This document shows positions 3,188 to 57,710 of a stretch of 64,000 bases of DNA, piece after piece (within the stretch, counting starts at the first letter, position 1; the number at the start of each line of letters is the position of its first letter). The notes beneath the pieces are model-generated. The model saw only the letters and a list, made by a program, of their open reading frames with translations, did no database searches and was not told the DNA's origin. Origin of the DNA: Methanolobus mangrovi (GTDB lineage Archaea; Halobacteriota; Methanosarcinia; Methanosarcinales; Methanosarcinaceae); NCBI RefSeq assembly GCF_031312535.1, contig NZ_CP133594.1, positions 62,001 through 126,000 on the forward strand, read 5' to 3'. Made by a program: the position numbers and the translations under genes.

Positions 3188-3511
3188 TTAGTTTACACTG
3201 GTGCTTAGATGCAGTCCTATAACACCTATGGCTATCAGTGCCAGGGATATTATTCTTGCAGCAGGCATTGGTTCGTTGAATCCAAAGTGTCCTATCAATG
3301 ATATCAATGCCACTCCAAGTCCTGCCCAGATGGCATAGGCAACACTCACATCTATCTTTTTCAGTGCAATGGTGAATGATATGAAACTGATACCATAGAA
3401 CACAAATATCAATATGGATGGCAGTGGTTTTGTAAATCCCTCAGATAGTTTCATGCAAGTGGTTCCGCATATCTCGAACACTATTGCAAATGCCAGGTAA
3501 AGGTAACTCAT
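3188..3511 (-). CDS. Small multidrug resistance (SMR) efflux protein, EmrE-like
   Basis: A 107-residue protein with four transmembrane helices. The membrane-embedded acidic residue that binds cation and proton is Glu 13, in the context FEICGTTCMKLSEGF, which closely resembles EmrE. The aromatic residues that line the EmrE pocket are also kept (Tyr 39, and YAIW at 59-62). It should exchange protons for a lipophilic or quaternary cation; a guanidinium-type substrate, as in other SMR subfamilies, cannot be excluded. It converges on fetB with a 34-bp gap and diverges from the DUF1638 gene. Confidence 0.88.
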   Translation of the reverse strand: MSYLYLAFAIVFEICGTTCMKLSEGFTKPLPSILIFVFYGISFISFTIALKKIDVSVAYAIWAGLGVALISLIGHFGFNEPMPAARIISLALIAIGVIGLHLSTSVN

Positions 3512-3643
3512 TTATCCTCCATATTCTCCTGTTTGAATAAGTATTGTTATTGGTTATGTTATACCTTCCTTGCTATTGCAGCGTCAGATTATAATACTAT
3601 TCGAATTCACATTTTCTTATACTCTTTAAGGAGGTATTATTTC

Positions 3644-4432
3644 ATGCCAGTACTGAGTTTCATTGCCTGTCGGATGTTTGAGGATGAGATTGTCCATATA
3701 ATTGAAAATGATAGTTCGATCAACAGTTTGTTAATAGTGGAGAATGAGGATTGTGGCGGACTGAAAGATAAGCTGGATAATGCAGGTTGTGAGTACACTC
3801 TTGTTTCAGAATGTGATATATCCGGACATCTAAAAGAAGGGGGATATACTATGATCGTCGAAATGCTTGAGCTGGCTTTGCATGCTACACCAGAGCATCT
3901 GAAAGAAGTCGTTTATGGCAAAGCCCGTGAGATGTCAGAGTATTCGGATGGAATTCTTTTGTTCTACGGTTTGTGTGGAAATGTTCTTGGCAAAGTGGAT
4001 ACGGATCTCGCTGATCTTCCATGTCCTGTCCGTATACTTAAAGAGGACAACGGAACTGTAATAGACGATTGTATCGGTGCTGTGCTGGGTAGCAGGGCTG
4101 CATATCTTGAGAAACTGAAGAGTTTTCACGGTGTTGGCACTTTCTTTATGACTCCGATGTGGGCAGCCCACTGGCGTGAGATGGTAGTGTCCGCGGGAAT
4201 GACTCCTGACCCTGATGACATAAAGCTCTCAAAGTTCGTTTTTGATTATGCAGGATACAAGAATGTGGCTAAAATGGATACTGGCCTGCATTATGAGAAG
4301 CAGTTCGAGCCTATGGTGGAAGAGTTTGCAAGGCTCTTTGAGTTCGATATAATTGACATGGAAGCAAGTCCTGATTTGATGGTGAGCTGTTACAAGCAAT
4401 TGAAAAAAGATGTTGTTCCTGACCAAAATTAA
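3644..4432 (+). CDS. DUF1638 family protein
   Basis: This 262-residue protein matches the methanogen DUF1638 family, with conserved stretches such as SDGILLFYGLCGNVLG, a DDCIGAVLGS segment and GVGTFFMTPMWAAHW. Several Cys and His residues (CRMFEDE near the start, CGG, the C in FYGLCGN, CPV, DDCIG) could bind metal or a corrinoid, but no biochemical role is known to me. Family members often occur near methylamine and corrinoid-protein genes; none is seen here. The start is at 3644 because an ideal aaggaggt lies at 3628-3635; an in-frame start 37 codons upstream would encode an unrelated low-complexity leader. Confidence 0.75.
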   Translation: MPVLSFIACRMFEDEIVHIIENDSSINSLLIVENEDCGGLKDKLDNAGCEYTLVSECDISGHLKEGGYTMIVEMLELALHATPEHLKEVVYGKAREMSEYSDGILLFYGLCGNVLGKVDTDLADLPCPVRILKEDNGTVIDDCIGAVLGSRAAYLEKLKSFHGVGTFFMTPMWAAHWREMVVSAGMTPDPDDIKLSKFVFDYAGYKNVAKMDTGLHYEKQFEPMVEEFARLFEFDIIDMEASPDLMVSCYKQLKKDVVPDQN

Positions 4433-5885: not shown

Positions 5886-7892
5886 TTATATATCACAAGA
5901 TGGACCTTTGAACAATTCCCTTATTTTATGCAGGTCTTCAGGCTTCCCGAAAATAATGCAAACATCACCAGAATATATGGGAATATTGCCATCTGGATTT
6001 GTGATGGTGGTATTGTCCCTGCGAATGGCCAGGATAGTTGCCTTGTGCCTTGTTCTCATATTGAGGTCCTTGAGTGTCCTTCCGTTTGCAAGGCACTTTT
6101 CTCCAACCTTAAATGTGGTGACTTCCATTCCCGGAAGCTCGTTCTTTAAATTGAAGCTTCTGTCCTGATCATTAGAATAGGACTTTCTAAGCATGCAGTA
6201 GCCATTCGCACGTATTTCTCTGGTGAACTTGTCTATCTCTTCCTCTGGCACAAGGTATTTTTTAAGCAGGCGGACAAATATCTCAACTGATGTCTCATAT
6301 TCTTCGGGGATGACCTCATCCGCGCCAAGGTCATTGAGCCTTTTCATCTCACTAATGTAACGGGTCCTGGCGATGATATATATGTCCGGGTTCAGACATT
6401 TTGCCATGTCGATTATCTTTCTTGTGGCAACGAAATCAGATATCCCTATAACGAGTATCCTTGCAGAATCAACGTTTGCAGACTTAAGTACTGCTTCATG
6501 GCTTGCATCACCATAATGTATCTGCTCTCCTTTTTTCTTCTCATGGCGAACAGTTTCGGGGTTTGTTTCAATTATGATATAAGGTATACCTGCATTCCTT
6601 GCTGCATGCGATAAGGTCTTGCCGTTGAACCCGTATCCGATTATTATCAGGTGATCCTTTACCTTTTCATCACTATTCTTTGCAGTGATCCCGATTGCAC
6701 AGAATCCGTTAATGAGTCGCTGGTACGGAACTATGCTGATAGCCCGGTCTGAAATACCATATGATGATGCTGTTATGAATGGTGTTAGCGCCATTGTGAT
6801 TATGGAAACTGCCAGGAATTTCTGATACATGTTCTGGTCAAGGAGTGAATATTCCAGGCCGAAGGTTGAGAGCACGAAAGAGAATTCCCCAACCTGTGCA
6901 AGTGCCAGTCCTGTGATTATTATTGTGCGAAGAGGATATCCCAGTATGAGTGTTGCAAGGCCTGCAGTGGCAGATTTTATAATAATGACTGCCAGTGCCA
7001 GAACAAGCAGGTATATCAGGTTACTTGTGAAGAAGCTGATGTCCAGCAGCATCCCAATGGACACGAAGAAAAAACTCATGAAAATATCCCGGAATGGCAT
7101 TATATTACCCATGGCCTGATGGCTGTACTCTGATTCTGATATGATAAGGCCTGCCATGAAAGCTCCGAGTGCAAGTGACAATCCTATACTTGAAGTGAGC
7201 CATGCAGTAGCCAGACAAATGAATACAATGCTCAGGAGGAATAATTCCCGGTTCCTTGTTTTTGCTATCTGGAACAGAAGAGCCGGAATAATCCATCTTG
7301 CACTTGCAAGGACCAATACAATTATCCCGATGGCTTTGAGCAGGAATAAAGGCAATGTTTCAGTGGATTCTGTAGCTGAGCCTGCTATTATTGGAGTTAT
7401 GAGGATCATCGGGACGATTATCACGTCCTGGAATATCAGTATTCCAAGCGATGTTTTTCCATGTGGTGTATCCAGTTCTGCTTTTTCCTGAAGCAGTTTT
7501 AGTACAATAGCAGTACTGCTAAGTGATATCAAAAAACCTATGAACAGCGATGTGGCAGAGCTAAGTCCGAAATAGGTGCAGATATAGTACACAAGCAGGA
7601 TAGTTGTTGCTATCTGCAGTGTTCCGCCTAAGAGGACTGACCTTTTGATATCCCAGAGTTCCCGGATGGACATTTCCACACCGATTGTGAACAGAAGCAG
7701 TATAATGCCTATCTCTGCAAGTTCTTCTACTTCGGATATACTGCTTATTATTCCCAGCCAGTGGGGACCTGCCAGCATTCCTGTTACAAGGAAACCCAGG
7801 ACAGAGGGAAGTTTCACCTTGCTGAATAGCAGCAATATGATTATAGAGAGTCCAAAAATAATTCCTATATCTGTGAATAAGGTCAGTTCCAT
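5886..7892 (-). CDS. CPA2 cation:proton antiporter with RCK (TrkA-N/TrkA-C) domains
   Basis: A 668-residue protein. The first ~390 residues hold 11-13 hydrophobic helices of the Na+/H+ or K+/H+ exchanger fold (KefB/KefC-like). A TrkA-N domain follows with the Rossmann motif GYGFNG and an acidic residue at the end of the second strand (IIIETN), suggesting NAD(H) binding. The last ~90 residues form a TrkA-C domain (PGMEVTTFKVGEKC...LAIRRDN). It most likely exports K+ or Na+ in exchange for protons, gated by nucleotide or ligand binding to the RCK part. The ion specificity is inference. It is transcribed alone. Confidence 0.88.
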   Translation of the reverse strand: MELTLFTDIGIIFGLSIIILLLFSKVKLPSVLGFLVTGMLAGPHWLGIISSISEVEELAEIGIILLLFTIGVEMSIRELWDIKRSVLLGGTLQIATTILLVYYICTYFGLSSATSLFIGFLISLSSTAIVLKLLQEKAELDTPHGKTSLGILIFQDVIIVPMILITPIIAGSATESTETLPLFLLKAIGIIVLVLASARWIIPALLFQIAKTRNRELFLLSIVFICLATAWLTSSIGLSLALGAFMAGLIISESEYSHQAMGNIMPFRDIFMSFFFVSIGMLLDISFFTSNLIYLLVLALAVIIIKSATAGLATLILGYPLRTIIITGLALAQVGEFSFVLSTFGLEYSLLDQNMYQKFLAVSIITMALTPFITASSYGISDRAISIVPYQRLINGFCAIGITAKNSDEKVKDHLIIIGYGFNGKTLSHAARNAGIPYIIIETNPETVRHEKKKGEQIHYGDASHEAVLKSANVDSARILVIGISDFVATRKIIDMAKCLNPDIYIIARTRYISEMKRLNDLGADEVIPEEYETSVEIFVRLLKKYLVPEEEIDKFTREIRANGYCMLRKSYSNDQDRSFNLKNELPGMEVTTFKVGEKCLANGRTLKDLNMRTRHKATILAIRRDNTTITNPDGNIPIYSGDVCIIFGKPEDLHKIRELFKGPSCDI

Positions 7893-45125: not shown

Positions 45126-45731
45126 TTATTCTTCAACGTAAAGCAGGTAAAGACAGCTGTTCTCTCTCATTTCCATGAATCCCTGGGTTTCGGATATTCC
45201 TGCCTTTTCCAGTAATACCTTCTTCCATGATTCTGGTGGAAGTGCTATCTTTCCGGTGTATGCCTTTGCTGCTATTTGAGCATACTGAAGGGGTTTTCCA
45301 TCTATCTTGATTCTCTTTGCCACTTCTTTACGGTAGGTCTGGTGCATCATACATGCACTGTGCGCGGCAGAAGGCTGTATGGTGTGGTTATAGTGGTCTG
45401 TTGCCTCCATGTGCACAGGATTGAAATTGCCGATACGCTTGATATATTCTCTTATGGCATTGGAGAATGGGCATACCTTGGTAACAAATCCATACTTGCT
45501 GATCTGTCCGATACTTTCAAATGATGAGAGAACAGATTCCCCGTTCACAACAGCATTTGTAAAATCATCCCATGTCTTGTATTCTTCTTCAGGTACTGAT
45601 TTTGCAAGAGATTCAGCCTGGCCTACCATGTAATTGGTAAAACCTTCTACACCTTGTTTATCCGATATATCTTCAAAGAAAAGATATACTGATACATCAA
45701 CAAAAGGATTTGAGCCTATATTTTCAGCCAT
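45126..45731 (-). CDS. Conserved protein of unknown function, paralogue A
   Basis: A 201-residue soluble protein. It is paralogous to the upstream gene: both share a CP(x)nREYIKRIG-like core, a Y-N-H/R-T/R-I stretch, and a C-x-x-HQ-x-x-R motif (SACMMHQTYRKEV here). The conserved Cys and His could form a metal or active site. Ribosome site ggtgatc precedes the ATG. The two genes are ten bases apart. I do not recognise the family and assign no function. Confidence 0.65.
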   Translation of the reverse strand: MAENIGSNPFVDVSVYLFFEDISDKQGVEGFTNYMVGQAESLAKSVPEEEYKTWDDFTNAVVNGESVLSSFESIGQISKYGFVTKVCPFSNAIREYIKRIGNFNPVHMEATDHYNHTIQPSAAHSACMMHQTYRKEVAKRIKIDGKPLQYAQIAAKAYTGKIALPPESWKKVLLEKAGISETQGFMEMRENSCLYLLYVEE

Positions 45732-45741
45732 ATGATCACCA

Positions 45742-46368
45742 TTAATCGATTATCTCTTCACCTGCACTCTTGCCTTTGACAATAAGGGCAAAAACACAGG
45801 ACGCATTACGCAGTATGCTTTTAATGTGTCTTTCATCCACATTGATCCTGGAAAGGTTCTCAGGTACCATCTTCACTTCACCGGTCATTCCTTTATTTGC
45901 CAGTTGCAGGCATTCAAGTGCCTGTTTTGCAACAGTAATATTGTTTGCTGCAACTTCTCTGAATTTCTGGTGTGTTATACAGTAATTTGAAACGGCTGAG
46001 TCTCTGATACGGTTGTTGTAACTATCTGCAACATCTGTGTCAGAATCAGGTATTGGTCCTATTCTGGAAATGTACCTTCCCATAGTAGGTGCCATAGGGC
46101 ATGTTTTTAAAGCGTATACATATCCAATGACATCTCCGTCTTTGTCAGTGATGGCAAGATCTGTCTGGACATTGACTGCTCCTTCGACTGTTAGTGATGT
46201 CCTTCCATCTTTCATTGCCACGTTAAAAGCTGGCCATCCGACGTATGCTTCCTTTCCCATTCTCTCAGCATAACTTTCACCTACGCGAAGCCAGTATTCT
46301 ACGACACCTTCGGTCCCTGCTTTGCTGACCATATCATCAACAAGTGAATATATTGCAATGTCCATCAT
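45742..46368 (-). CDS. Conserved protein of unknown function, paralogue B
   Basis: A 208-residue soluble protein, sister of the next gene downstream. Its core reads YALKTCPMAPTMGRYISRIG, then DSYNNRIRDSAVSNYCITHQKFREVAANN. An aaggag lies 11 bases before the first of two adjacent ATGs. The pair forms an operon, separated from the GntP permease gene by 60 bp. No known function. Confidence 0.65.
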   Translation of the reverse strand: MMDIAIYSLVDDMVSKAGTEGVVEYWLRVGESYAERMGKEAYVGWPAFNVAMKDGRTSLTVEGAVNVQTDLAITDKDGDVIGYVYALKTCPMAPTMGRYISRIGPIPDSDTDVADSYNNRIRDSAVSNYCITHQKFREVAANNITVAKQALECLQLANKGMTGEVKMVPENLSRINVDERHIKSILRNASCVFALIVKGKSAGEEIID

Positions 46369-46477: not shown

Positions 46478-47005
46478 TTAAAGTAAAGTTATTTTAATCC
46501 ATTTCAATTCAGGATTTTCCGGATACAACTGTTCAGTGGTTAGGTTATCTTCTTCTATTATCTGCATAGCTTCATTTTCTGACTTTACAGTCATCTCAAA
46601 AGGGCTCTCCCCTGCAACATCGTATCTGAGAAAAAAATGTCCGTCTTCGGCCATAAGAAGCCTGACATAATCTTTACTTAAAGATTCAAGTCCAAGTTCG
46701 TATCCTTTCTGGCTTTTTGCTGTCCATACAACAATCTCAGTCTCTGCTGGATATGAAGTTTTAATCCCGCCGCTTAGCACAGGTTTCCTGTCTTTTTTAA
46801 CTGAAGCAATGTTCTTACCTTCTTTTAAGGAATAAGATAGATCATTTGAAGTGATATTTCCGGAAAGGAAGAATGTGGTTGATGCAGGATTGTCTGTGTT
46901 TATTCCTGTTCTTACAAGTGAATGCAGCATCTCAGTGAACGCAATTCCTTTATCACTATCCTTTGTACCTGATCGTTCCAGATGCTGTGTCCAGATATTT
47001 TTCAT
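46478..47005 (-). CDS. Hypothetical protein at the end of the chemotaxis operon
   Basis: A 175-residue soluble protein starting MKNIWTQHLERSG. It has a long basic and polar middle (SLKEGKNIASVKKDRKPVLSGGI) and a beta-rich second half (ETEIVVWTAKSQKGYELGLE, VRLLMAEDGHFFLRYDV). No motif is recognised. It follows the last CheC-like gene after 49 bp in the same direction, so it probably belongs to the chemotaxis transcript. Confidence 0.55.
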   Translation of the reverse strand: MKNIWTQHLERSGTKDSDKGIAFTEMLHSLVRTGINTDNPASTTFFLSGNITSNDLSYSLKEGKNIASVKKDRKPVLSGGIKTSYPAETEIVVWTAKSQKGYELGLESLSKDYVRLLMAEDGHFFLRYDVAGESPFEMTVKSENEAMQIIEEDNLTTEQLYPENPELKWIKITLL

Positions 47006-47054
47006 AAAGATCAACCATTGAAATTAATTACTTCATTAATATTAGATATCAAAG

Positions 47055-47681
47055 TTATCCCAACATATTACGGATCGAACTTTGTATTTTATCAAGTGAG
47101 TGCGAGTCAAGCAAAAGGAACATGTCTCCGTAGATAGTTCCGGCACCAGCGTCTTTCTCAGAGGAGTACACCATAAACATTGTTTCAAGATTCAATATAT
47201 TTGCAGGCTCATTCCCCATCATGGATATTCCTTTGTTGAGAACATCCTTAATAGGCCCCAGACTGATATCAGGTACAGAATGCATTATATTAAGGTTCAG
47301 GAAAGATGAGAGTGAATCCAGATATGAACCTGCGATTATATTTCCGGTTTCAAGAAGTGCAGACTCATAGATACTTGGATCTTCATCATGTTCAATACTC
47401 TGTAATAGTAATTTGCTGAGGTAAACAGCATTTCCGAATTCAAATAATAACATTACAAGACCATTGATATCTCCACGGACTGGTATCATTATACCTGTCA
47501 TGGTTATCGAATCCGGTATCATATCAATGATGGCAGATGGTTCAAACAGCCGGGCATCAGACAGATTGAGCTGGACGCGTTTCTCGATCAGTTTAGACAG
47601 GGACGTGGTTGCGTTTCCCATCCCTATGCTTCCAATTTCCTTGAAAGCATCTATTATAAAATTGTCCAGTTCTTTATCCAT
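47055..47681 (-). CDS. CheC-like protein 1 (first site altered)
   Basis: A 208-residue CheC-family protein, a class that dephosphorylates CheY-P. The family has two D/S-x3-E-x2-N sites. Here the second is intact (SALLETGNIIAG), but the first reads DAFKEIGSIGMGN, with Ser in place of the catalytic Asn. It should therefore have one functional site, or have become a binding protein. The start at 47681 fits agga nine bases upstream better than the ATG three codons earlier. It follows a membrane-protein gene by 17 bp. Confidence 0.83.
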   Translation of the reverse strand: MDKELDNFIIDAFKEIGSIGMGNATTSLSKLIEKRVQLNLSDARLFEPSAIIDMIPDSITMTGIMIPVRGDINGLVMLLFEFGNAVYLSKLLLQSIEHDEDPSIYESALLETGNIIAGSYLDSLSSFLNLNIMHSVPDISLGPIKDVLNKGISMMGNEPANILNLETMFMVYSSEKDAGAGTIYGDMFLLLDSHSLDKIQSSIRNMLG

Positions 47682-47698
47682 TTTATTCATTCCTGCTA

Positions 47699-48712
47699 TT
47701 ATACCAGTTTAACTTGCACATTTTGATCCATGAAGAATTTCTCACCAACGTAGAATCGGATATATTCCTCTTTTCCACCTTTAATGAGGCGAATCTTTGT
47801 CCCTTCTTCCTCAGCAAGGTTTAAGAAAAGACCTTCAATCCTGGATACTGTCTGTTCGTCATGTGCACTCTTATTGATCATTCCAACAAGAAGTAATTCA
47901 TTTGTTGCAAACCTTTCAACCATTTCTGACATGAATTCATAGATATCTTTATCACTTGCAGTGAGGAGCAATTGGCTTATAGGTTCAAAGATCACTGCAC
48001 AGCCTTTTGGAAGCTTGCTTGTGAGTTCGAAGAATTTATCAAGCTCATCCGTTGGCAGTTTGATAATTCCGTCTTCATTAGTTACCTGTTTGCTTGTAGA
48101 TGATATCTCTATGAATTTCATTGCGCCTATATCCATGAGGTCCCCTATCTTTTCCTTGTACATGGCTGTACGTGGTTGGGTAGATACAAGAACCGTATTG
48201 ACCATTTCTCCATAAAGACGCAGACAGATCTCGATAACAGAGTCCTCATATCTGGCTTTTGGTGTGTACTCTATCAATGTGGATCTGTTGAACAACGTGG
48301 ATATCTGTTCTACTTCCGCAATGTTATCGATATCTTCTTCAGATTGTAGCGATTTTGTGAATACCATTCCTTCTATGAGATAATCTCCAAGTTTTTCCCT
48401 TGGTATCGTTCTGAAAGCCTGAAACATCAAAAAACCAGCAGCAGCAAAGATTCCAATGTAAACAACACTCCAGAATCCTAAAAACAGGAATATCATTTCA
48501 GTAATATCTGTGTCCTGTGAACTGATGGCAATGGAGGGGAATATTGCTGATGTGATAAGGAATATGGATGTAAGTGCAAGGAGCAACCAGGCAATAGATC
48601 CCTTTTTTGTTTCATAGTATATCTTCACCCAGTAATATATGGCTGCAAATCCACATGCCATTGATATGGAAATGAAAATAATGTGTATTATTGTTATATC
48701 GGGAGTTAACAT
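47699..48712 (-). CDS. Membrane protein with DUF835-like C-terminal domain
   Basis: A 337-residue protein. The first ~105 residues hold three to four membrane helices (TIIHIIFISISMACGFAAIYY, WLLLALTSIFLITSAIF, FWSVVYIGIFAAAGFLMF). The remaining ~230 are cytoplasmic and resemble DUF835, a degenerate RecA/KaiC-like domain found in archaea (TVLVSTQPRTAMYKEKIG, GCAVIFEPISQLLL). No Walker motif is visible. Embedded between cheD and a cheC-like gene, it may act as a membrane scaffold or sensor for the chemotaxis proteins; that is inference. Confidence 0.6.
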   Translation of the reverse strand: MLTPDITIIHIIFISISMACGFAAIYYWVKIYYETKKGSIAWLLLALTSIFLITSAIFPSIAISSQDTDITEMIFLFLGFWSVVYIGIFAAAGFLMFQAFRTIPREKLGDYLIEGMVFTKSLQSEEDIDNIAEVEQISTLFNRSTLIEYTPKARYEDSVIEICLRLYGEMVNTVLVSTQPRTAMYKEKIGDLMDIGAMKFIEISSTSKQVTNEDGIIKLPTDELDKFFELTSKLPKGCAVIFEPISQLLLTASDKDIYEFMSEMVERFATNELLLVGMINKSAHDEQTVSRIEGLFLNLAEEEGTKIRLIKGGKEEYIRFYVGEKFFMDQNVQVKLV

Positions 48713-48768
48713 CCTGCTGCCACCTATGTTTTATGTCACATGCAATTATTAATCTAATTATATATATA

Positions 48769-49242
48769 TCAATATGTTTTTATGCCTTTGATCGCACTCT
48801 TGACAGTAAGCTCTCCATTTTCAGTGTCAAGTATTATAGTACGCCCGTAATTGAGTCCTGTATCCTGAGCAATAATGGGTATTTTCAATTCTTTTAGCAC
48901 CTGTTTCGTAGCTGCTATATTTCTCTCGCCGATATTTAGCTGGGTGCTGGAATTGAATGAGAACATGCTTGCACCACCTGCTATTTTGGCAGTGATGCGG
49001 TGCTTATATGCACCTTCATCAACCATACTATCAAGAAGGGAAGGTATGCCTGTATCTGCAAATTTAGCCATATTCTCTTTTGATCTTGCCTGATCGATAC
49101 TCGGGAGCATAATATGGACCATCCCGCCAATATATGTACTTTTATCGTAGAGGGAAATACCTACACATGACCCTAATCCAAGGGTAGTCAGCTTTGTAGG
49201 CTTCTTCGCCACTGCACTATCAGCCATTCCCACTATTATCAT
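48769..49242 (-). CDS. cheD: CheD, chemoreceptor glutamine deamidase
   Basis: A 157-residue CheD. The catalytic Cys 26 is in TTLGLGSCVGIS and the His 43 in GGMVHIMLP; the conserved Thr 20 completes the known triad. CheD deamidates receptor glutamines and stimulates CheC. Its start lies two bases after the stop of a CheC-like gene, consistent with the CheC-CheD partnership. Confidence 0.95.
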   Translation of the reverse strand: MIIVGMADSAVAKKPTKLTTLGLGSCVGISLYDKSTYIGGMVHIMLPSIDQARSKENMAKFADTGIPSLLDSMVDEGAYKHRITAKIAGGASMFSFNSSTQLNIGERNIAATKQVLKELKIPIIAQDTGLNYGRTIILDTENGELTVKSAIKGIKTY

Positions 49243-49244
49243 GC

Positions 49245-49859
49245 TTATCTCGTACGCATTTCTTCTATCCTTTCAAGTACGGATTTTAATGAAGCTGAAT
49301 CAAGCAACATGTACATGTCACCGCTCAGGCTATGGTATTCATCTTCACCTGCAACTTCAAAAAGGGTAGTCAGGCCGAAAATATGCTCTATTTTCCCATT
49401 CATATGCATTTTTGCTTTAGAGAATATTTCATTTGAGCTTCCTTCGGATATTATGGGAATAGAAGGTATGATTGAAAGATTCAGGAACTTCGAAAGAGCG
49501 TTATAATAACTTCCTGCGAGAATATTGGCAACTTCAATAAATGCTGAAGTTTTCATATAAGTGTCCTCTTCGGAAGTGTTGTCTTTGAGCAGCATGTCAG
49601 ATAAGGCATCAGAATGGCGCTTTCTTATGATGAGCATGAATCCTCCGTTCATTTCACCCATTACTCTTACAATTGCTCCCATCCTGTCTTTGTTCTCGTC
49701 ATTACTGATGTCCCGCACACTGAGCAATGTAAGGGCTGAACTGCTTACGTTTATTGATTTATCTACAAGCTGTGACAGGGCAGTTGTTGCATTTCCCATC
49801 CCTATATTTCCCACTTCGTTCAATGCATCGTAATAGAATTTATCAAGTACTATATTCAT
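49245..49859 (-). CDS. cheC: CheC-like protein 2 (both sites intact)
   Basis: A 204-residue CheC-family phosphatase. Both active-site motifs are complete: DALNEVGNIGMGNA (Glu and Asn three residues apart) and SAFIEVANILAG. It is therefore a candidate active CheY-P phosphatase. It sits between the canonical cheC and cheD, with 14-bp and 2-bp gaps. Confidence 0.87.
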   Translation of the reverse strand: MNIVLDKFYYDALNEVGNIGMGNATTALSQLVDKSINVSSSALTLLSVRDISNDENKDRMGAIVRVMGEMNGGFMLIIRKRHSDALSDMLLKDNTSEEDTYMKTSAFIEVANILAGSYYNALSKFLNLSIIPSIPIISEGSSNEIFSKAKMHMNGKIEHIFGLTTLFEVAGEDEYHSLSGDMYMLLDSASLKSVLERIEEMRTR

Positions 49860-49873
49860 TCATCTCACTCCTG

Positions 49874-50488
49874 TCAAATCATCTTGTCAATACGCTCAAG
49901 TATAATATCCATTGAATCAGGGTCGAACAAGGTAAGGAATATACCATTCATTCTATTGCCCTCGATCATGAACAAAGTATCAAAAAGAAGTGCATGCTCT
50001 GCTTTTTGACTCATTTCAATGAGTATGTGATCTATTATGGCACCGAGCATGTCAAATGTCTGCATAGGTGGTGATAATTTAATGTTCAGTCCCAGGAAAT
50101 TAGAAAGTGAACTGACATAGGATCCTGCAAGGATATTTCCAACCTCTTCTATCAGGGACTGGTTCAGAGGACTCATAATATCGACCTCCTCCTCGTTGGT
50201 GATCGTTTTGCATATTGTTTCAGTGGCTTCCTGGGGAAGCATCATCATTATGTATCCTTCCACATCACCTTCTACATGCATAATCACTCCTGATACAACT
50301 TTATCAGCCCCGCCTGCAAAATCAGGTACTTTCTCTATTAATTCTACTTTAAGTCCCGGAACTTCTATTTTAATCTCTTTTGAGATCATTTTTGAAAGGG
50401 AAGTGACAGCATTACCAACGCCTATATTGACAACTTCTCTTAATGCACTGATCTGTAACTCAGTCAGGTTTGATATTTTGTACTTCAT
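49874..50488 (-). CDS. cheC: CheC, CheY-P phosphatase
   Basis: A 204-residue protein closest to canonical CheC. The two catalytic motifs are SALREVVNIGVGNA and QSLIEEVGNILAG, both with Glu and Asn, and the C-terminus HALLFDTLFMIEGNRMNG fits the family. It removes phosphate from CheY and is activated by CheD in organisms where this has been studied. It follows cheR by 56 bp. Confidence 0.92.
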   Translation of the reverse strand: MKYKISNLTELQISALREVVNIGVGNAVTSLSKMISKEIKIEVPGLKVELIEKVPDFAGGADKVVSGVIMHVEGDVEGYIMMMLPQEATETICKTITNEEEVDIMSPLNQSLIEEVGNILAGSYVSSLSNFLGLNIKLSPPMQTFDMLGAIIDHILIEMSQKAEHALLFDTLFMIEGNRMNGIFLTLFDPDSMDIILERIDKMI

Positions 50489-50544
50489 GTGTTTGCTCCT
50501 GAATCACATTTTAGATACTGTCACTTTTAACAGAGTATCCGATG

Positions 50545-51366
50545 TCATTTCTGGTAGATTCTCTCCTTTGAGTTGTAAGCTTTATACATATCTTTAGATG
50601 GTCCTATCAGGGTCTCGGTCTTACCCATTACGAAAAATCCATCTTTCAGCAGTGCATTATAGAAATCCATGTAGAGCTGTTCCTGCAGTTCCTTCTGGAA
50701 ATATATGGTTACATTCCTGCAGAATACGGCATCAAAACCATTCATTTTAGGTCCTGAAATAAGGTCTTGCTTTTTGAATTGTGCAATATTTTTCAGTTCA
50801 TCAGAGATTACGTAATTGTTACCTTCCTTTGTGAAGTATTTGTTAAGGAAAGCAGGTCTTACATCTTTCATTTCTATAGTTGAGTAAACACCTTTCTGGG
50901 CTTTCAAGAGACTTTCCTTATCAATATCAGTACCTGTAATTTTTATATTGAATTTCTTAAAGTCATCACCAAGTATGTGGTGCAGCAACATTGCAATTGA
51001 ATATGCTTCTACGCCAATAGAACAGCCTGCACTCCATATGCGTATAGACCGAAGTCCCGTATTCTTCGCTTTGATTATGGCAGGCAGCACTTCTTTTTCA
51101 ACGATGTCGTATACTTCTGCATTCCTGAAGAAATTGGTAACATTGACAGTCAGTGTTTCCATCAGTTCAGGATATTCTTTGTCGTTGCTTTGAAGCAGTT
51201 TTACATAATCTTTGTATGTTTTGGAGTTAGTTGCACGCAATCTGACATCGATCCTTCTTTTAAAGTGTGAATCCTTATATTGTTCACAATTAAAACCAAG
51301 TTTCTTCTGTATCAGTATTTTCAACATCTCGTAATCTTCGTCCCTTTTTTGAATGGTTTCAAGCAT
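50545..51366 (-). CDS. cheR: CheR, chemoreceptor methyltransferase
   Basis: A 273-residue CheR. An N-terminal helical domain (about 10-75) precedes the SAM-binding domain, with NVTNFFRNAEVYD and IRIWSAGCSIGVEAYSIAMLL; the last carries Gly-Cys-Ser and Glu of the SAM site. DAVFCRNVTIYF is the conserved motif for the substrate pocket. It methylates receptor glutamates. Its start is one base after the stop of the FtsA-like gene. Confidence 0.94.
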   Translation of the reverse strand: MLETIQKRDEDYEMLKILIQKKLGFNCEQYKDSHFKRRIDVRLRATNSKTYKDYVKLLQSNDKEYPELMETLTVNVTNFFRNAEVYDIVEKEVLPAIIKAKNTGLRSIRIWSAGCSIGVEAYSIAMLLHHILGDDFKKFNIKITGTDIDKESLLKAQKGVYSTIEMKDVRPAFLNKYFTKEGNNYVISDELKNIAQFKKQDLISGPKMNGFDAVFCRNVTIYFQKELQEQLYMDFYNALLKDGFFVMGKTETLIGPSKDMYKAYNSKERIYQK

Positions 51367-51367
51367 T

Positions 51368-53488
51368 TTATCCCTCTACAAATTCTATAGTCACATTGTT
51401 TCCATCTCTCAGTGGGGTTGTGAATCTGGCAGGAACATTGTTCACAAGAAGCCTCATGCTCTTGCCTACAAGTTCCTCCTTCCTAATATCCATAAATTCA
51501 AATAGATCTGAAAGAATAGGGTCGGCTTCTTCCCCGTTTTTAAATATGACAGTGTCTCCGTCATTCACTTTTTCAGAAAGCTTTGCTTTTTTCCCATTGA
51601 GGGTGATCTGTGCCTGGGAACCGTTGAATATTACTTCTTCACCATTGAGAAGTACACTGATCCTTTTGCCTTCTTCCGGTTTGCCCATAATTTTTTCCAG
51701 GGTATAATCAAACTCGGTTCTTTCTACGGTTATGACGTCACCATCTTCAATGACATGGGTGGAAAGTTCAGATATATCTACAATCCTGTCGTTGAGTCTT
51801 ACAATATATCTTATTTTCTCAAAGTATCGTATCTGGTTATTTACAATGATGCTGGTCTTCTCAGCATTCTCTGAATTAAATTCCTGTTCCAGTATATCCT
51901 GTAAACAGGCAGGTCTGATAATTACCCGTGACCTGTCAGGTATACTCTCATCAATCGATGCTGTTTTGTCATTAATCCTTACAAAAGGCAGCTGTTCCAG
52001 ATTTTTACCATTGAGATTGATTTTAACACTGGACGGTATTCTCAATTTATCGATCAGGTCCTTTACCTTCACACGTGCATCCCTTCCGTCCGAAGGAGCT
52101 GTAAATTCAATAACTGCACCTTTGTGAACAGGATCTCCAAGGGCTGCTTTCTTTCCATCAAGCAATATTCTTGCATGTTCTCCCATTTCTCCTTCAATGG
52201 TAAGGAATTCAGAATTAACATTTAGACTAAGGGCCATTCCGGGGCGTGGGTAGAGTCTCTTCACCTTTGCAACGACAAGTGCATCCATTATAGACAGTCC
52301 GTTGACATCCATTAGATGAATGTTCGAACCGTTAACTGAAACATCTATAAATTCAATGCCCTGCTTGAGGATAGCCATTCTGGCAATTCCCAGAGGTGTT
52401 ATCATATCAGCACCATTGACTTTTCCCGTGCTGTCTGAAAATCCTTCAATCTGCTTAGGAAGACGGGAGCCGATCCTTTGTATGGGCAGTTCCAGATGTT
52501 TTGACAGGTGTTCTTTAAGTCCGGCAGTCTGTGATCCTCCGCCTACAAGGACAACAGCTCTTGGTGTCCTGGAATTAAGTGATTTGATCTCTTCTGAAAT
52601 GTGCAGTGCCAGTTTGTCAACTTCATTTTCTATGTCGTTGATTATCTGGCTTACAGGAACTTCTGATGTAATGCCGAAAATATCTTCGAGTTCTATATTT
52701 TCTTTACTGGTAAGGGATTGTTTAATCATCTCGCCTTTTTTGAAATCCACAAGGTAATGGTCACAAATAAAATCAGTAATTTCATCCCCTGCTTCCGGAA
52801 CCATTCCATATCCGATGACAGTTCCATTGTCAGTTATCGCTATATCCGATGTACCAGCCCCCACATCTACAAGCGCAATGTTGAGTTTGCGCATATCGGT
52901 AGGCAAAGCAACGCTCAATGCAGCTATTGGTTCAAGTGTAACACTGGATGCTTCGAGGGAACATTTGTTCAGAACTGCAAACATACTGTTGATAACAGCT
53001 TCCGGAAGAAATGTTGCAAGCACTTCTATAGAAATATGAGTTCCTTTCTGGTCCACTATGTTGGATATCCTCTGGCCGTCGAGTTCATAGCTGACAACCG
53101 AATATCCTACACAGTTAAACCCTTCATCTATTCCAAGTTCGTTGCTTGCTCTTGCAACAGCTTCAAATTCCAGTTCAGAAATGTCTTCAGCTGTGATTTC
53201 TCTGTAGGGTATTTCCACCGAGATTTTTACATTCGATGTCTTCAGAGCTCTTCCTGCAACAGCAACTGATACTTTGGATAATTTATGCCCGATTTGCTTT
53301 TCCAGATCGGTTTTGACTGTATCTACGACTTTAGCGACCTTTTCAACATCATGTATCTGTCCATCCTGCATGCTTCGTTCACTATGTTCATGAATGCACG
53401 CAGCCCTGATATTGAGGTGCTCATCCTCTGTAATGAGGCCAACTACAGTCCTTGTTCCGATATCCAGAGCAAAGTGGGCACTGTTCAT
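51368..53488 (-). CDS. FtsA-like actin-fold protein with repetitive C-terminal half
   Basis: A 706-residue protein. The N-terminal ~375 residues resemble bacterial FtsA/PilM: phosphate-1 motif DIGTRTVVGLI (9-19), an inserted 1C-like subdomain (about 72-165), phosphate-2 DVGAGTSDI (208-216) and adenosine motif VLVGGGS (313-319). So it should bind ATP. The C-terminal half has at least four segments that look like small beta-grasp or SHS2-like repeats, each with a VNG/LNG turn and a DGD/DGN turn. It lies between a cheC-like gene and cheR with 1-bp gaps, so it is co-expressed with the chemotaxis genes. Possibly it polymerises or scaffolds the array; its role is not known to me. Confidence 0.72.
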   Translation of the reverse strand: MNSAHFALDIGTRTVVGLITEDEHLNIRAACIHEHSERSMQDGQIHDVEKVAKVVDTVKTDLEKQIGHKLSKVSVAVAGRALKTSNVKISVEIPYREITAEDISELEFEAVARASNELGIDEGFNCVGYSVVSYELDGQRISNIVDQKGTHISIEVLATFLPEAVINSMFAVLNKCSLEASSVTLEPIAALSVALPTDMRKLNIALVDVGAGTSDIAITDNGTVIGYGMVPEAGDEITDFICDHYLVDFKKGEMIKQSLTSKENIELEDIFGITSEVPVSQIINDIENEVDKLALHISEEIKSLNSRTPRAVVLVGGGSQTAGLKEHLSKHLELPIQRIGSRLPKQIEGFSDSTGKVNGADMITPLGIARMAILKQGIEFIDVSVNGSNIHLMDVNGLSIMDALVVAKVKRLYPRPGMALSLNVNSEFLTIEGEMGEHARILLDGKKAALGDPVHKGAVIEFTAPSDGRDARVKVKDLIDKLRIPSSVKINLNGKNLEQLPFVRINDKTASIDESIPDRSRVIIRPACLQDILEQEFNSENAEKTSIIVNNQIRYFEKIRYIVRLNDRIVDISELSTHVIEDGDVITVERTEFDYTLEKIMGKPEEGKRISVLLNGEEVIFNGSQAQITLNGKKAKLSEKVNDGDTVIFKNGEEADPILSDLFEFMDIRKEELVGKSMRLLVNNVPARFTTPLRDGNNVTIEFVEG

Positions 53489-53489
53489 C

Positions 53490-54107
53490 TTATCCCATCA
53501 TCTTTTTCATGACCGCTGCCATTATTACGTCTGTAGCACCTGGTTCAAAAAGCATGTTGAATTCGTTCTTTGAATTTGTAGAGGGTATGAAACATTCTCC
53601 TTTAACAACAATGAATTGATCAGCAAGAGTTCCAATCTGTGCTTTAATGAAGTCACCTACTCCTTCCATATTGACTTCAATACTCGGATCGCCTATTTTC
53701 AGGTCAATTCCAAGGAATTCATTGACAACCCTCATGTAGGAACTGCAGAGATTTAATCCCATTTCACGCAGTTTCCGAATCTGTGGTTCCTCTATCTTTG
53801 TGGTTGTACCTATGGATTTCTTCATAAGTAGGTCAGAAAATGAGAGTGCGGAAAATTTAGGAAGCAGTATAAGAGTTCCACCAGTCACATCACCGGACAT
53901 GTGGAGGTGTATTCCTATTACACTTTTGTTCTTCCCTTCTTCATTGCTCTTTGCAATTATCTCATCAAGAGTAAGCATTTCAACAACAGGGATATCTATC
54001 TTTACGTCCCTATTCACCATCTTTGAAAGTGAAGTAGCCAGATGGCCCATTCCAATGTTTCCTGCTTCTTGAAATGCTCCTTTTGCCATTTCGTCCAATT
54101 CTGCCAT
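53490..54107 (-). CDS. CheC-like protein 3 (second site altered)
   Basis: A 205-residue CheC-family protein. The first site is intact (AFQEAGNIGMGHL, Glu 14 and Asn 17), but the second reads KLREMGLNLCSS, where Leu replaces the catalytic Asn. This is the mirror image of the defect in CheC-like protein 1. It is followed after one base by the FtsA-like gene and preceded by cheA with 15 bp. Its placement suggests partnership with the actin-like protein. Confidence 0.8.
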   Translation of the reverse strand: MAELDEMAKGAFQEAGNIGMGHLATSLSKMVNRDVKIDIPVVEMLTLDEIIAKSNEEGKNKSVIGIHLHMSGDVTGGTLILLPKFSALSFSDLLMKKSIGTTTKIEEPQIRKLREMGLNLCSSYMRVVNEFLGIDLKIGDPSIEVNMEGVGDFIKAQIGTLADQFIVVKGECFIPSTNSKNEFNMLFEPGATDVIMAAVMKKMMG

Positions 54108-54122
54108 GTTATTCCCTCATAT

Positions 54123-56162
54123 TTAGATTAATGTAGCAATATCCAGGATCAATGCGACACTTCCATCTCCTAGGATAGTTGCACCTGCGAATCCTCTTAT
54201 GTTTTTCAAAATTTTATTATCAAGTGTTTTAATTATTACTTCCTGCTGGCCAAGAAGACTGTCAACTACCAACCCGATGTTGTTTCCCATTTTTTCAACA
54301 ACAACAACGATTAGAGTCTTTTTCTCTTCCTGTTCTTCCGTACAATCCAGAACATCATGCAATCTCAACAACGGAAGTACTTCGCCTCTCAGAAGAACAA
54401 CTTCTTTACCTTCTATGGTCTTTATTTCGCTGGCTTTTATCCCAACATCACGAATAACATTGCCAAGTGGAATGGCGTATGTTTCATCGGCTACAGTGAC
54501 CATAAGTGACTGAATAATGGCTACTGTTAATGGTAGCTGCAGTTTCATTATGCTTCCCTGGCCGGGTACTGAACTGATCTTTACGCTTCCGCCAAGGGAC
54601 TCAATCTTTGTTTTGACAGCATCCATACCGACTCCCCTTCCGGAGATGTCAGTAATAGCTTTAGCCCCGCTAAATCCAGGCATGAAAATAAGGTTCAGGG
54701 CATCTGTATCTGAAAGCTTATCAACTTCTTCCCTGCTCATTATTTCTTTCTTAACAGCTATATCTCTCAGAGTAGCAGGGTCCATTCCTTTTCCGTCATC
54801 TTCCACTTCTATCAGAACACTATTTCTCTGACGTGAAGCTGCCAGCCTGACAAGACCTGCAACAGGCTTCCCTATTTTTCTACGCTCGTCCTCTGATTCG
54901 ATTCCATGGTCAACGGCATTACGCAGAAGATGGACGAGTGGGTCCCCAATTTCATCCAGAACAGTTCTATCAAGTTCGATCTCTTTTCCTTCGATGATGA
55001 GGTTTATTTGTTTACCCTCTGATTTTGCAAGGTCTCTTATCATTCGTGGGAACCTGCTGAAGATCTGGTCGATAGGGACCATTCTTGATTCCATGACTTC
55101 TGTCTGTATCTCGTTTGTCAGGCGGTCAAGGTTTGCAAGTGATTCATCCAGATCCTTTGCATTAAGGTCAGAGGCAAGCTGGTTTAACCTTATCTTGTTT
55201 ATGATAAGTTCTCCAACCAGATTCATCAGGTTATCAAGCCGTTCAATATTAACCCTGACACTTTGTATGCTTTTGACCGCATCTGACCTTTTGACACTGG
55301 AACTGTTTTGATGTACTTCTTCATCGTTCTCTTTTTTGTCATGGTCTATTTTATCATTCTGGGTGCTCTGGGAAATTGTGGTGGGGACTACATTTTTGAT
55401 TTCTGAAATTTTCGTTATGTTTCCAACTATCTCTTCATCAGTAGCTTTTGTAGAAAATATGACTGTGAACTCAAGATCGAATTTTTCATCTTCAAGCTGT
55501 TCCTCCCCGGGTTCACACTTTATAATTTCTCCCATCTTTGTAACATTGATAAGTACAAGCGTTGACCTAGCTGATTTAAGCACACATGATTCATCAAGGG
55601 TAACTTTTAAGGATACAACCCTGTTCCCATCCTGTGCAGCACATTCGATTGCCTGTTTTTCAGCTTCAGAAAGTTCGATGTCAGTCTCACTGGCAATCTT
55701 TACTGCAGACTGTAATTCACTACCGATATCATTTTCAATTGTACTGGTACTTGCAGCTATTGAACATGTTATCTCGCCGGTAGCTATTGTTCCTTCCATG
55801 GCTCTTACAAGTGTGGCCTGTAGGGATGTAATATTTACTGTTTCTCCGCTATCCACAGTTGCAACAAGCGCTTCCAGAGTATCCAGACATTCAAAGAGAA
55901 TATCTATAAGACCATTACTAATCGCCAGCTGTGACTTTCTTACCATGTCCATTAAATTTTCCATTTCATGTGTCAGCTCTGCAATGGTATTGAATCCCAT
56001 TGTTGCTGACATTCCTTTCAGAGTATGTGCTGAACGGAACATGGTATTGATGTACTCAAGATCATTGGGGTTCTGTTCAAGCCCCAGTAATGAATCATTA
56101 AGTTGCTGCAGATGTTCTTCTGATTCTGCTTTAAATATTTCTTTATATTCCGACATATCCAT
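54123..56162 (-). CDS. cheA: CheA, chemotaxis histidine kinase
   Basis: A 679-residue kinase. The P1 domain has the phosphorylated His 46 in RSAHTLKGMSATMGF. A P2-like CheY-binding segment follows (about 200-260), then the dimerisation helices (NLMNLVGELIINKIRLNQL), the ATP-binding domain (HLLRNAVDHGIE, EDDGKGMDP, GRGVGMDAVKTK) and the P5 regulatory domain, which is CheW-like. The start is the ATG at 56162, two codons after a GTG. It autophosphorylates and passes phosphate to CheY and CheB. Confidence 0.95.
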   Translation of the reverse strand: MDMSEYKEIFKAESEEHLQQLNDSLLGLEQNPNDLEYINTMFRSAHTLKGMSATMGFNTIAELTHEMENLMDMVRKSQLAISNGLIDILFECLDTLEALVATVDSGETVNITSLQATLVRAMEGTIATGEITCSIAASTSTIENDIGSELQSAVKIASETDIELSEAEKQAIECAAQDGNRVVSLKVTLDESCVLKSARSTLVLINVTKMGEIIKCEPGEEQLEDEKFDLEFTVIFSTKATDEEIVGNITKISEIKNVVPTTISQSTQNDKIDHDKKENDEEVHQNSSSVKRSDAVKSIQSVRVNIERLDNLMNLVGELIINKIRLNQLASDLNAKDLDESLANLDRLTNEIQTEVMESRMVPIDQIFSRFPRMIRDLAKSEGKQINLIIEGKEIELDRTVLDEIGDPLVHLLRNAVDHGIESEDERRKIGKPVAGLVRLAASRQRNSVLIEVEDDGKGMDPATLRDIAVKKEIMSREEVDKLSDTDALNLIFMPGFSGAKAITDISGRGVGMDAVKTKIESLGGSVKISSVPGQGSIMKLQLPLTVAIIQSLMVTVADETYAIPLGNVIRDVGIKASEIKTIEGKEVVLLRGEVLPLLRLHDVLDCTEEQEEKKTLIVVVVEKMGNNIGLVVDSLLGQQEVIIKTLDNKILKNIRGFAGATILGDGSVALILDIATLI

Positions 56163-56215
56163 GGTCACACCAACCCTAAGATCATAATGATCTTCTATCC
56201 TTTTGCAAAAACATT

Positions 56216-57322
56216 TTAATCACCAGATGAATTCAGCATTCGTACAATTTCATTCGAGACCTTTTCCAAAGGAACAATACTGTCTGCAAGACCTCGCTGT
56301 ACTACTGCTTTTGGCATGCCATAGACAACACAGGATTTTTCATCCTCAGCAATTGCTTTTCCTCCGGCATTCTTTATCTCTTCGACTCCGTCAGCTCCAT
56401 CAGCTCCCATCCCTGTCAAAACGGCAGTTACGATGTTTGCTCCATATATAGGCACCAGCGATTTGAAAAGTATGTTTGCACAGGGTCTTACTCCCTGTTC
56501 CCGGGGATTCTGATTAAGTTTGATCACTTCATGGTAAACGCCGCCGGATTCTTTTGAGACAATCTCCATATGATAGTTTCCAGGTGCAAGATACGCATGT
56601 CCTGCATGAAGCACATCTCCTTCTTTTGCCTCAGTAACTGTCAATTGTGATTGTACATCCAGTCTTTGTGCAAGTGATGCTGTAAAGCCTGCAGGCATAT
56701 GCTGGACTATTACCACAGGAACTTTGAGATTACCTGGTAATTTTGGAATAACCTGTTCAAGTGCACGCGGTCCGCCTGTTGATGATGCAATTGCAATAAT
56801 TTTTCCTCTTGCATGGTGTTTGTTCTTCGGGATAACTTGCTTCTTTTGTTTAGTGGGCAAAGTTTTTCCTTCATTTTCACGTGCATTTTTCACGTGTTCT
56901 TCCATGAACCCGAGTTTTTTCAGGTCCACTTTTGATGCAATTTTTACTTTAGTACGGATCTCTAAAGCAATATCCGCAATGTTCAGACTAATATTTCCAG
57001 ATGGTTTTTGTATAAAGTCAACTGCTCCATACTCAAACGCATTTAGTGTACTCTCTGCTGACCTGGAGTCGACCGCTGTCAACATGACAACTGGTGTGGG
57101 ACATTCGCTCATGATATATCCCAAAGCGTGTAATCCGTCCAACACGGGCATCTCAACATCCAGGGTTACTACATCCGGCCTGAATTTTTCAACTTTCTCA
57201 ATAGCTTCCTGCCCATTTCTGGCAGTAGCTACTACGTTTATTTCAGGATCTTCTTTCAGGATATCTGAGACTACCTTTCGCATGAGTGCGGAGTCATCGA
57301 CTACAAGTGCATTGATAGTCAT
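56216..57322 (-). CDS. cheB: CheB, receptor methylesterase/response regulator
   Basis: A 368-residue two-domain protein. The receiver domain spans 1-120, with Asp 10 and phosphoacceptor Asp 55 (VTLDVEMP). The methylesterase domain follows an acidic and basic linker, with Ser in IAIASSTGGP, His in VVIVQHMPAGFT and Asp in TGMGADGADG forming the catalytic triad. It removes methyl groups from receptors and is activated by CheA. It follows cheY by one base. Confidence 0.95.
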   Translation of the reverse strand: MTINALVVDDSALMRKVVSDILKEDPEINVVATARNGQEAIEKVEKFRPDVVTLDVEMPVLDGLHALGYIMSECPTPVVMLTAVDSRSAESTLNAFEYGAVDFIQKPSGNISLNIADIALEIRTKVKIASKVDLKKLGFMEEHVKNARENEGKTLPTKQKKQVIPKNKHHARGKIIAIASSTGGPRALEQVIPKLPGNLKVPVVIVQHMPAGFTASLAQRLDVQSQLTVTEAKEGDVLHAGHAYLAPGNYHMEIVSKESGGVYHEVIKLNQNPREQGVRPCANILFKSLVPIYGANIVTAVLTGMGADGADGVEEIKNAGGKAIAEDEKSCVVYGMPKAVVQRGLADSIVPLEKVSNEIVRMLNSSGD

Positions 57323-57323
57323 A

Positions 57324-57680
57324 TTAGATTACTTTTCCAATTACTTCCAGGACTTTTGCTGCATCAAAAGGCTTAACTATAAAGTCAAGAGCTCCGGTTT
57401 TGAGTGCATCAGTTACAACAGATTGCTGTCCTATGGATGAACACATCACTACTTTTGCAGCAGAGTCCATTTCCATTATCTTTTTAAGAGCATCAATTCC
57501 TTCCATATTTGGCATGACAATATCCATAAAGACCAGTTCTGGTTTTAGCTGTGGGTATTTTTGTACAGCATCAAGCCCATCGACACATTCGCCAACCACT
57601 TCATGGCCATTTTTTGTTAATATGTCCTTGATGACCATACGCATAAAGGCAGCATCGTCCACAATCATTACTTTTACCAT
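57324..57680 (-). CDS. cheY: CheY, chemotaxis response regulator
   Basis: A 118-residue single receiver domain. The acidic pocket is VMIVDDAAF (Asp 8 and 9 from the start used) and the phosphoacceptor Asp 53 is in VFMDIVMP; the conserved Lys is in FIVKPFD. Three in-frame ATGs are possible (57710, 57689, 57680); 57680 has a suitable ggaga about 10 bases upstream and gives the usual CheY length. It is the first gene of the operon. Confidence 0.94.
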   Translation of the reverse strand: MVKVMIVDDAAFMRMVIKDILTKNGHEVVGECVDGLDAVQKYPQLKPELVFMDIVMPNMEGIDALKKIMEMDSAAKVVMCSSIGQQSVVTDALKTGALDFIVKPFDAAKVLEVIGKVI

Positions 57681-57710
57681 TTTGTTCATATCTCCAGTTT
57701 TTGGTATCAT

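Follow-up and report, generated by a model that had tools for sequence, protein, structure and literature searches.

ParC of Vibrio is a ParA-type ATPase. ParP and ParC couple the formation of chemosensory arrays to their location, and ParP enters the arrays by way of its AIF domain (PMC5706961). Haloarchaea place arrays and archaella independently of each other (PMC6509185), and the haloarchaeal MinD and CetZ proteins influence placement of the chemotaxis machinery (PMC11588486, PMC11621097). An actin fold in array placement is described in neither PMC5706961 nor PMC6509185. An interaction map of Halobacterium proposes a feedback loop linking CheC, CheD, and CheB; neither FtsA nor actin is mentioned in it (PMC3579733). 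CheF (DUF439), a chemotaxis adaptor restricted to archaea, links the Che system with the archaellum (PMC2666748).

We analyzed a stretch of 64,000 nucleotides from Methanolobus mangrovi (contig NZ_CP133594.1, positions 62,001 to 126,000; referred to here as the window) in which an FtsA-like protein is encoded within a chemotaxis (che) operon. We use the working name FtsAL for this product of 706 amino acids (ORF 51368-53488). FtsAL belongs to the FtsA/PilM superfamily as an undescribed member that is associated with chemotaxis, was transferred horizontally, and has a C-terminal architecture that is new. As a candidate accessory array protein it is comparable to ParP and ParC, but it has an actin fold rather than a ParA-type fold and lacks an AIF domain. 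MinD and CetZ are archaeal NTPases that affect where motility and chemotaxis machinery is placed, but their folds are of the ParA/MinD and tubulin types. CheF and FtsAL are alike in being lineage-specific extra genes in che regions, backed by genome context; CheF, however, is archaeal only, whereas FtsAL is probably bacterial in origin and has an ATPase fold. A first-pass annotation, made from the sequence alone, knew of no described role for such a protein in chemotaxis, and our search of the open-access literature likewise found no published account.

The FtsAL gene is a single frame with an ATG start; the first-pass annotation gave no strand for it, and the strand is minus. The operon lies entirely on the minus strand in the order cheY-cheB-cheA-cheC1-FtsAL-cheR-cheC2-cheC3-cheD-(337 aa)-cheC4-(178 aa), and its identified genes are as follows:
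57324..57710, minus strand: cheY, with a receiver domain
56216..57322, minus strand: cheB, assigned by sequence and synteny
54123..56168, minus strand: cheA, with Pfam Hpt, P2, H-kinase_dim, HATPase_c, and CheW domains
53490..54107, minus strand: cheC1 (Pfam CheC, E=2.5e-7), first ExxN phosphatase site intact, second without its Asn
51368..53488, minus strand: FtsAL, FtsA-like/beta-grasp protein of 706 aa (ORF, Pfam, family alignment, and a structure model with mean pLDDT 87)
50545..51366, minus strand: cheR methyltransferase (Pfam CheR, E=1.1e-52)
49874..50488, minus strand: cheC2 (Pfam), both ExxN sites intact
49245..49859, minus strand: cheC3 (Pfam), both ExxN sites intact
48769..49242, minus strand: cheD (Pfam CheD, E=2.5e-36)
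47055..47690, minus strand: cheC4 (Pfam), first ExxN site degenerate, with Ser in it

The placement originally claimed for the gene, 1 bp from a cheC-like gene and 1 bp from cheR, was confirmed by ORF coordinates and Pfam, with cheC1 and cheR as the two neighbors. The operon proteins searched (46478-57710, minus strand) included no identifiable CheF, receptor, or stand-alone cheW, and no pil genes were recognized among the identified che-operon proteins. FtsZ was not found among the FtsAL neighbors read in the window, and neighborhoods in Firmicutes were variable. Around the FtsAL gene, neither RNA families nor promoter signals exceeded expectation.

Other features of the region were also recorded. 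The ExxN phosphatase sites vary among the four CheC paralogues (47055-54107, minus strand), with both sites kept in CheC2 and CheC3. The 337-aa protein (47699-48712, minus strand) has a hydrophobic N-terminal part, matched no Pfam family above cutoff, and has been retained in the operons of G065, G003, and Methanolobus. The 178-aa protein at the operon end (46478-47014, minus strand) matched no credible Pfam family and is the fastest-evolving gene of the operon, with dN/dS of 0.18-0.39. Two adjoining ORFs of 201 and 208 aa (45126-46368, minus strand) had no Pfam match, yet were 81-99% identical over all Methanosarcinaceae che regions read, a conservation exceeding that of the che genes.

The N-terminal part of FtsAL contains the following features:
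52364..53488, minus strand: actin/FtsA-type ATPase core, residues 1-375 (Foldseek matches to FtsA 7q6i/7q6f/7q6d, PilM 5eou, and EutJ 3h1q)
53444..53467, minus strand: phosphate-1 motif LDIGTRTV, residues 8-15, with L8, D9, G11, T12, and R13 invariant in 36 sequences
52841..52873, minus strand: phosphate-2 motif LVDVGAGTSDI, residues 206-216, with D208, G210, A211, G212, T213, D215, and I216 invariant
52529..52555, minus strand: adenosine motif, residues 312-320, with G316, G317, and G318 invariant

The predicted model of FtsAL (mean pLDDT 87, pTM 0.63) matched FtsA crystal structures best in Foldseek (7q6i, E=6e-27 over 393 columns), followed by PilM 5eou (E=9e-20), EutJ 3h1q (E=1e-15), and then MreB. 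By sequence, phmmer aligned FtsAL with crystallized FtsA at E=6e-16, and Pfam PilM_2, FtsA, and MreB_Mbl each exceeded their curated cutoffs, PilM_2 in all 36 family members. Residues from about 83 to 162 form a strand-helix-strand-strand subdomain at the position of FtsA domain 1C, as determined by DSSP on the model; the sequence model SHS2_FTSA matched just 1 of the 36 relatives. The likeness of FtsAL to actin/FtsA proteins is far beyond chance. These data bear out the actin/FtsA fold that the first-pass annotation had proposed for residues 1-375, and its three nucleotide-binding motifs are intact, with motif residues invariant in 36 aligned relatives.

The remainder of the chain is of a different kind:
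51371..52363, minus strand: about five ubiquitin-like units of the beta-grasp (ThiS/TGS) type in tandem, residues 376-706 (Pfam, model, Foldseek)
51371..51532, minus strand: last beta-grasp unit, residues 653-706 (Pfam ThiS at 659-701)

The count of about five units is a manual reading of secondary structure and repeats. When residues 376-706 were modeled separately (mean pLDDT 89), Foldseek returned linear ubiquitin, bacterial multi-ubiquitin proteins, ISG15, ThiS, and a TGS domain, with a target TM of 0.81 against ThiS 1zud. Across the 36 relatives, Pfam ThiS was matched in 26, Ub-Mut7C in 15, and TGS in 10. The repeated VNG/LNG...DGD segments that had been noticed earlier are therefore beta-grasp units. 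In archaea the last unit (mean column identity 0.71) is about as conserved as the core, whereas the middle units evolve fast. FtsAL lacks both a transmembrane stretch and a C-terminal amphipathic helix; its chain ends in a beta-grasp strand. The FtsA proteins of Bacilli, in contrast, end in an amphipathic helix, such as VKNWLSEFI.

FtsAL and FtsA have in common an actin fold with a 1C-type subdomain and the ATP-site motifs, and FtsA structures are the best PDB matches of FtsAL. Unlike FtsA, FtsAL has approximately 330 extra residues of ubiquitin-like units, and its neighbors are che genes where FtsA has ftsZ. With the NCBI FtsA model (TIGR01174) it scored 125.1 bits, below the cutoff of 175.85. 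FtsA and FtsAL formed separate clades with 100% support, the branch that holds the root being very long. True FtsA and FtsAL occur together in several Bacilli genomes. Given the score below cutoff, the absence of a membrane helix, the clade of its own, and the true FtsA in the same genomes, we rejected FtsAL as an FtsA orthologue; it is not a division protein. PilM is close in fold, as the 5eou match indicates, and FtsAL passed the Pfam PilM_2 (PF11104) cutoff with 36.8 bits against 27, but it was far under the NCBI pilM cutoff (TIGR01175; 50.4 bits against 133), PilM lacks the C-terminal array, and no recognized pilus genes are nearby. The same searches found EutJ and diol dehydratase reactivase as further actin-fold relatives, with an NCBIfam EutJ match at E=3e-15 and the Pfam DDR domain (diol dehydratase reactivase) in 23 of 36 family members; these proteins, however, are shorter and belong to another metabolic setting.

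Distribution in archaea was narrow. Among 27 Methanolobus genomes, FtsAL was full length in 24, internally deleted in 1 (G051), and absent from 2; a full-length copy was also present in G003, a genome of another genus. In the sample of 296 Halobacteriota genomes (111 genera), carriers were found in Methanolobus only, with FtsAL absent from 281. All 25 full-length archaeal copies are located between cheC1 and cheR, which upholds the claim of a gene inside an archaeal che operon. An association with cheR and cheC throughout methanogens, which had also been considered, holds in one respect: archaeal FtsAL is always at cheC1/cheR, but the che operons of sister genera do without it. In those genera (G065, G073, and G029) cheA-cheC1-cheR is present with 64-93 bp between cheC1 and cheR, and FtsAL was therefore inserted into a pre-existing operon. 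G048, a Methanolobus genome, has kept the che operon with FtsAL gone. In G051 (L103, about 3269-3913), residues 1-104 and 601-705 are joined in frame; either the actin core has been destroyed and the last ubiquitin-like unit kept, or this is an assembly error. G054 has neither FtsAL nor detectable CheC1 relatives. With FtsAL gone in G048, broken in G051, and missing in G054, the protein is thus useful but dispensable. Its dN/dS of 0.06-0.16 in six Methanolobus pairs indicates purifying selection, somewhat looser than on the che genes.

In a tree of 91 core sequences, archaeal FtsAL formed one clade (100% SH-aLRT) nested within Firmicutes, near Peptococcaceae/Desulfotomaculum and the copy at L014. 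Supports for the deeper nesting were 80-93%, with the FtsA root on a very long branch. Because the archaeal clade is nested among Firmicutes, FtsAL probably arose there, was passed once to the Methanolobus ancestor, and was inserted once between cheC1 and cheR.

We looked within the operon for candidate partners of FtsAL. The first-pass annotation had suggested the altered CheC-like protein encoded just upstream. This did not hold, and we rejected CheC1 as a special partner, as the same degenerate second site occurs in sister genera without FtsAL. CheC3 was absent in both Methanolobus genomes that have the che operon but a lost or broken FtsAL. However, FtsAL is present in G003, where cheC3 is absent, and intact in G052, where cheC3 (L117, about 7117-7400, minus strand) lacks the stretch between its half-sites and has a frame broken near the end. 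A tree-based test of the FtsAL-cheC3 pair was underpowered (p 0.25), and the case for cheC3 as an FtsAL-dependent partner is suggestive only. Pairwise relative-rate tests made CheA appear faster after FtsAL loss; this was also rejected, since the tree excess of 1.65 in G048 was matched by the carriers G049 and G044, and CheA of G051 showed no excess (0.93).

Outside archaea, FtsAL was compared with the occurrence of CheA in two samples of Firmicutes. Among 150 Lachnospiraceae genomes, 61 had FtsAL, 78 had CheA, and 60 had both. Of 200 Bacilli genomes, FtsAL was found in 78, CheA in 142, and both in 77; the FtsAL count leaves out three weak partial matches resembling ordinary FtsA. Fisher p values, which ignore relatedness and are uncorrected for phylogeny, were 2e-24 and 2e-14, respectively. 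CheA was present without FtsAL in 18 Lachnospiraceae and 65 Bacilli genomes; the relation is therefore one-way, and FtsAL is optional for Che systems. The two carriers without CheA, G523 (1.6 Mb, with FlhA and CheD present) and G607 (at least 310 contigs), look like incomplete assemblies. CheD and FlhA track FtsAL as closely as CheA does, and in the Lachnospiraceae sample the three can hardly be told apart, FlhA being present in 59 of 61 carriers. The few genomes in which they disagree lean weakly toward sensing over the motor: four flagellated Lachnospiraceae without CheA (G394, G508, G509, and G520) all lack FtsAL, and G436 and G485 have FtsAL, CheA, and CheD with FlhA not detected.

Gene neighborhoods of FtsAL in Firmicutes vary and usually include no che gene. 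Homologues scattered away from che genes had been considered evidence against a chemotaxis function, and on this point the outcome was mixed; Firmicutes copies are indeed mostly not beside che genes, but nearly all are in genomes with CheA. In the small class of G364 (L014, L198, L199, and L200) the gene order is hemL-cheR-FtsAL, and cheR, the sole che gene seen beside FtsAL, is just upstream in 4 of 4 genomes, either adjoining or one gene off, with a predicted cation antiporter gene in between in two. L014, which belongs to this class, branches near the archaeal FtsAL clade. At L020, cheR follows hepT and is one gene away from FtsAL. Proximity to cheR is therefore present in both domains. Membership in a motility regulon was unsupported, as a sigma-D-type promoter was found upstream of 0 of 64 Firmicutes copies (about 0.5 expected).

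Taken together, these data support the link of FtsAL to chemotaxis well and make a role there likely. The flagella of Firmicutes bear no relation to archaella, and the Che proteins are common to both domains; the factor shared by Firmicutes and archaea is therefore the Che system. The invariant ATP site suggests that the FtsA-type actin fold binds ATP and may work as a nucleotide-driven switch, putatively through ATP hydrolysis, and the arm of about five ubiquitin-like domains could provide docking surfaces. FtsAL would then gather or organize Che proteins as an ATP-switched scaffold, with its best-indicated partners on the CheR/CheC adaptation side, which it may contact directly, and it may self-assemble or form filaments. 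If the role is in chemotaxis, we favor this scaffold mechanism somewhat over its alternatives. As the best explanation overall, we consider FtsAL to be an accessory ATPase of the Che system, an ATP-switched scaffold of Firmicutes origin, with a probability of about 50%.

A polymer that places or moves the chemosensory array, in line with the cytomotive action suggested in the first-pass annotation and as an actin-fold counterpart of ParC/ParP or archaeal MinD, would agree with the best-matching FtsA crystal forms being filaments (7q6f, 7q6i), with the dedicated array-positioning proteins documented in Vibrio (PMC5706961), and with the polar arrays of haloarchaea (PMC6509185). We consider it unlikely, given that no membrane anchor was seen in FtsAL and that a protein missing from most Halobacteriota sampled cannot position arrays for archaea in general. 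About equally unlikely is a Che-specific chaperone or reactivase, similar to EutJ or Hsp70, that assembles or remodels the Che complex at the expense of ATP. The EutJ and DDR matches are in its favor, and the operon persists without FtsAL, which is not essential there; FtsA and PilM, however, are nearer than EutJ in fold and length, and the core has the FtsA-type 1C-like subdomain. A ubiquitin-like array, moreover, is not known from EutJ or Hsp70.

Somewhat less likely still is that FtsAL serves the motility organelle or its switch and not the sensory array, acting for example on CheC/FliY-fold proteins. The frequency of FlhA among Lachnospiraceae carriers, the adjoining cheC1, and the missing cheC3 where FtsAL is lost or broken would fit, but one factor hardly suits both archaella and flagella, and the discordant genomes (four flagellated and CheA-less without FtsAL; G436 and G485 with it) point the other way. 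That FtsAL serves in division or pilus assembly, as FtsA or PilM do, and came to lie among che genes as a hitch-hiking accident is very improbable. Its Pfam names are PilM_2 and FtsA and operon placement could be chance, yet there is a single insertion site throughout Methanolobus, co-occurrence with CheA is tight in two Firmicutes samples, scores are below both NCBI cutoffs, some of the same genomes have a true FtsA, and ftsZ or pil neighbors were not recognized in the window or in Firmicutes contexts.

Chemotaxis is among the best-studied bacterial signaling systems, and one would not expect it to have a further component that is widespread. In annotation, FtsAL would be hidden by its resemblance to FtsA and PilM. 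A bolder version of the scaffold reading, in which an actin-family ATPase with ubiquitin-like arms is a cytoskeletal scaffold organizing chemosensory arrays in Firmicutes and, following its transfer from one domain to the other, in an archaeon, is tentative; it raises the question of whether such arrays are organized by an actin-type ATPase. If true, chemotaxis would have an actin-type cytoskeletal element in FtsAL, a common accessory Che protein that was overlooked through its FtsA-like core. Its move into an archaeon with a different motor helps to tell the sensing parts of the system from the motor parts.
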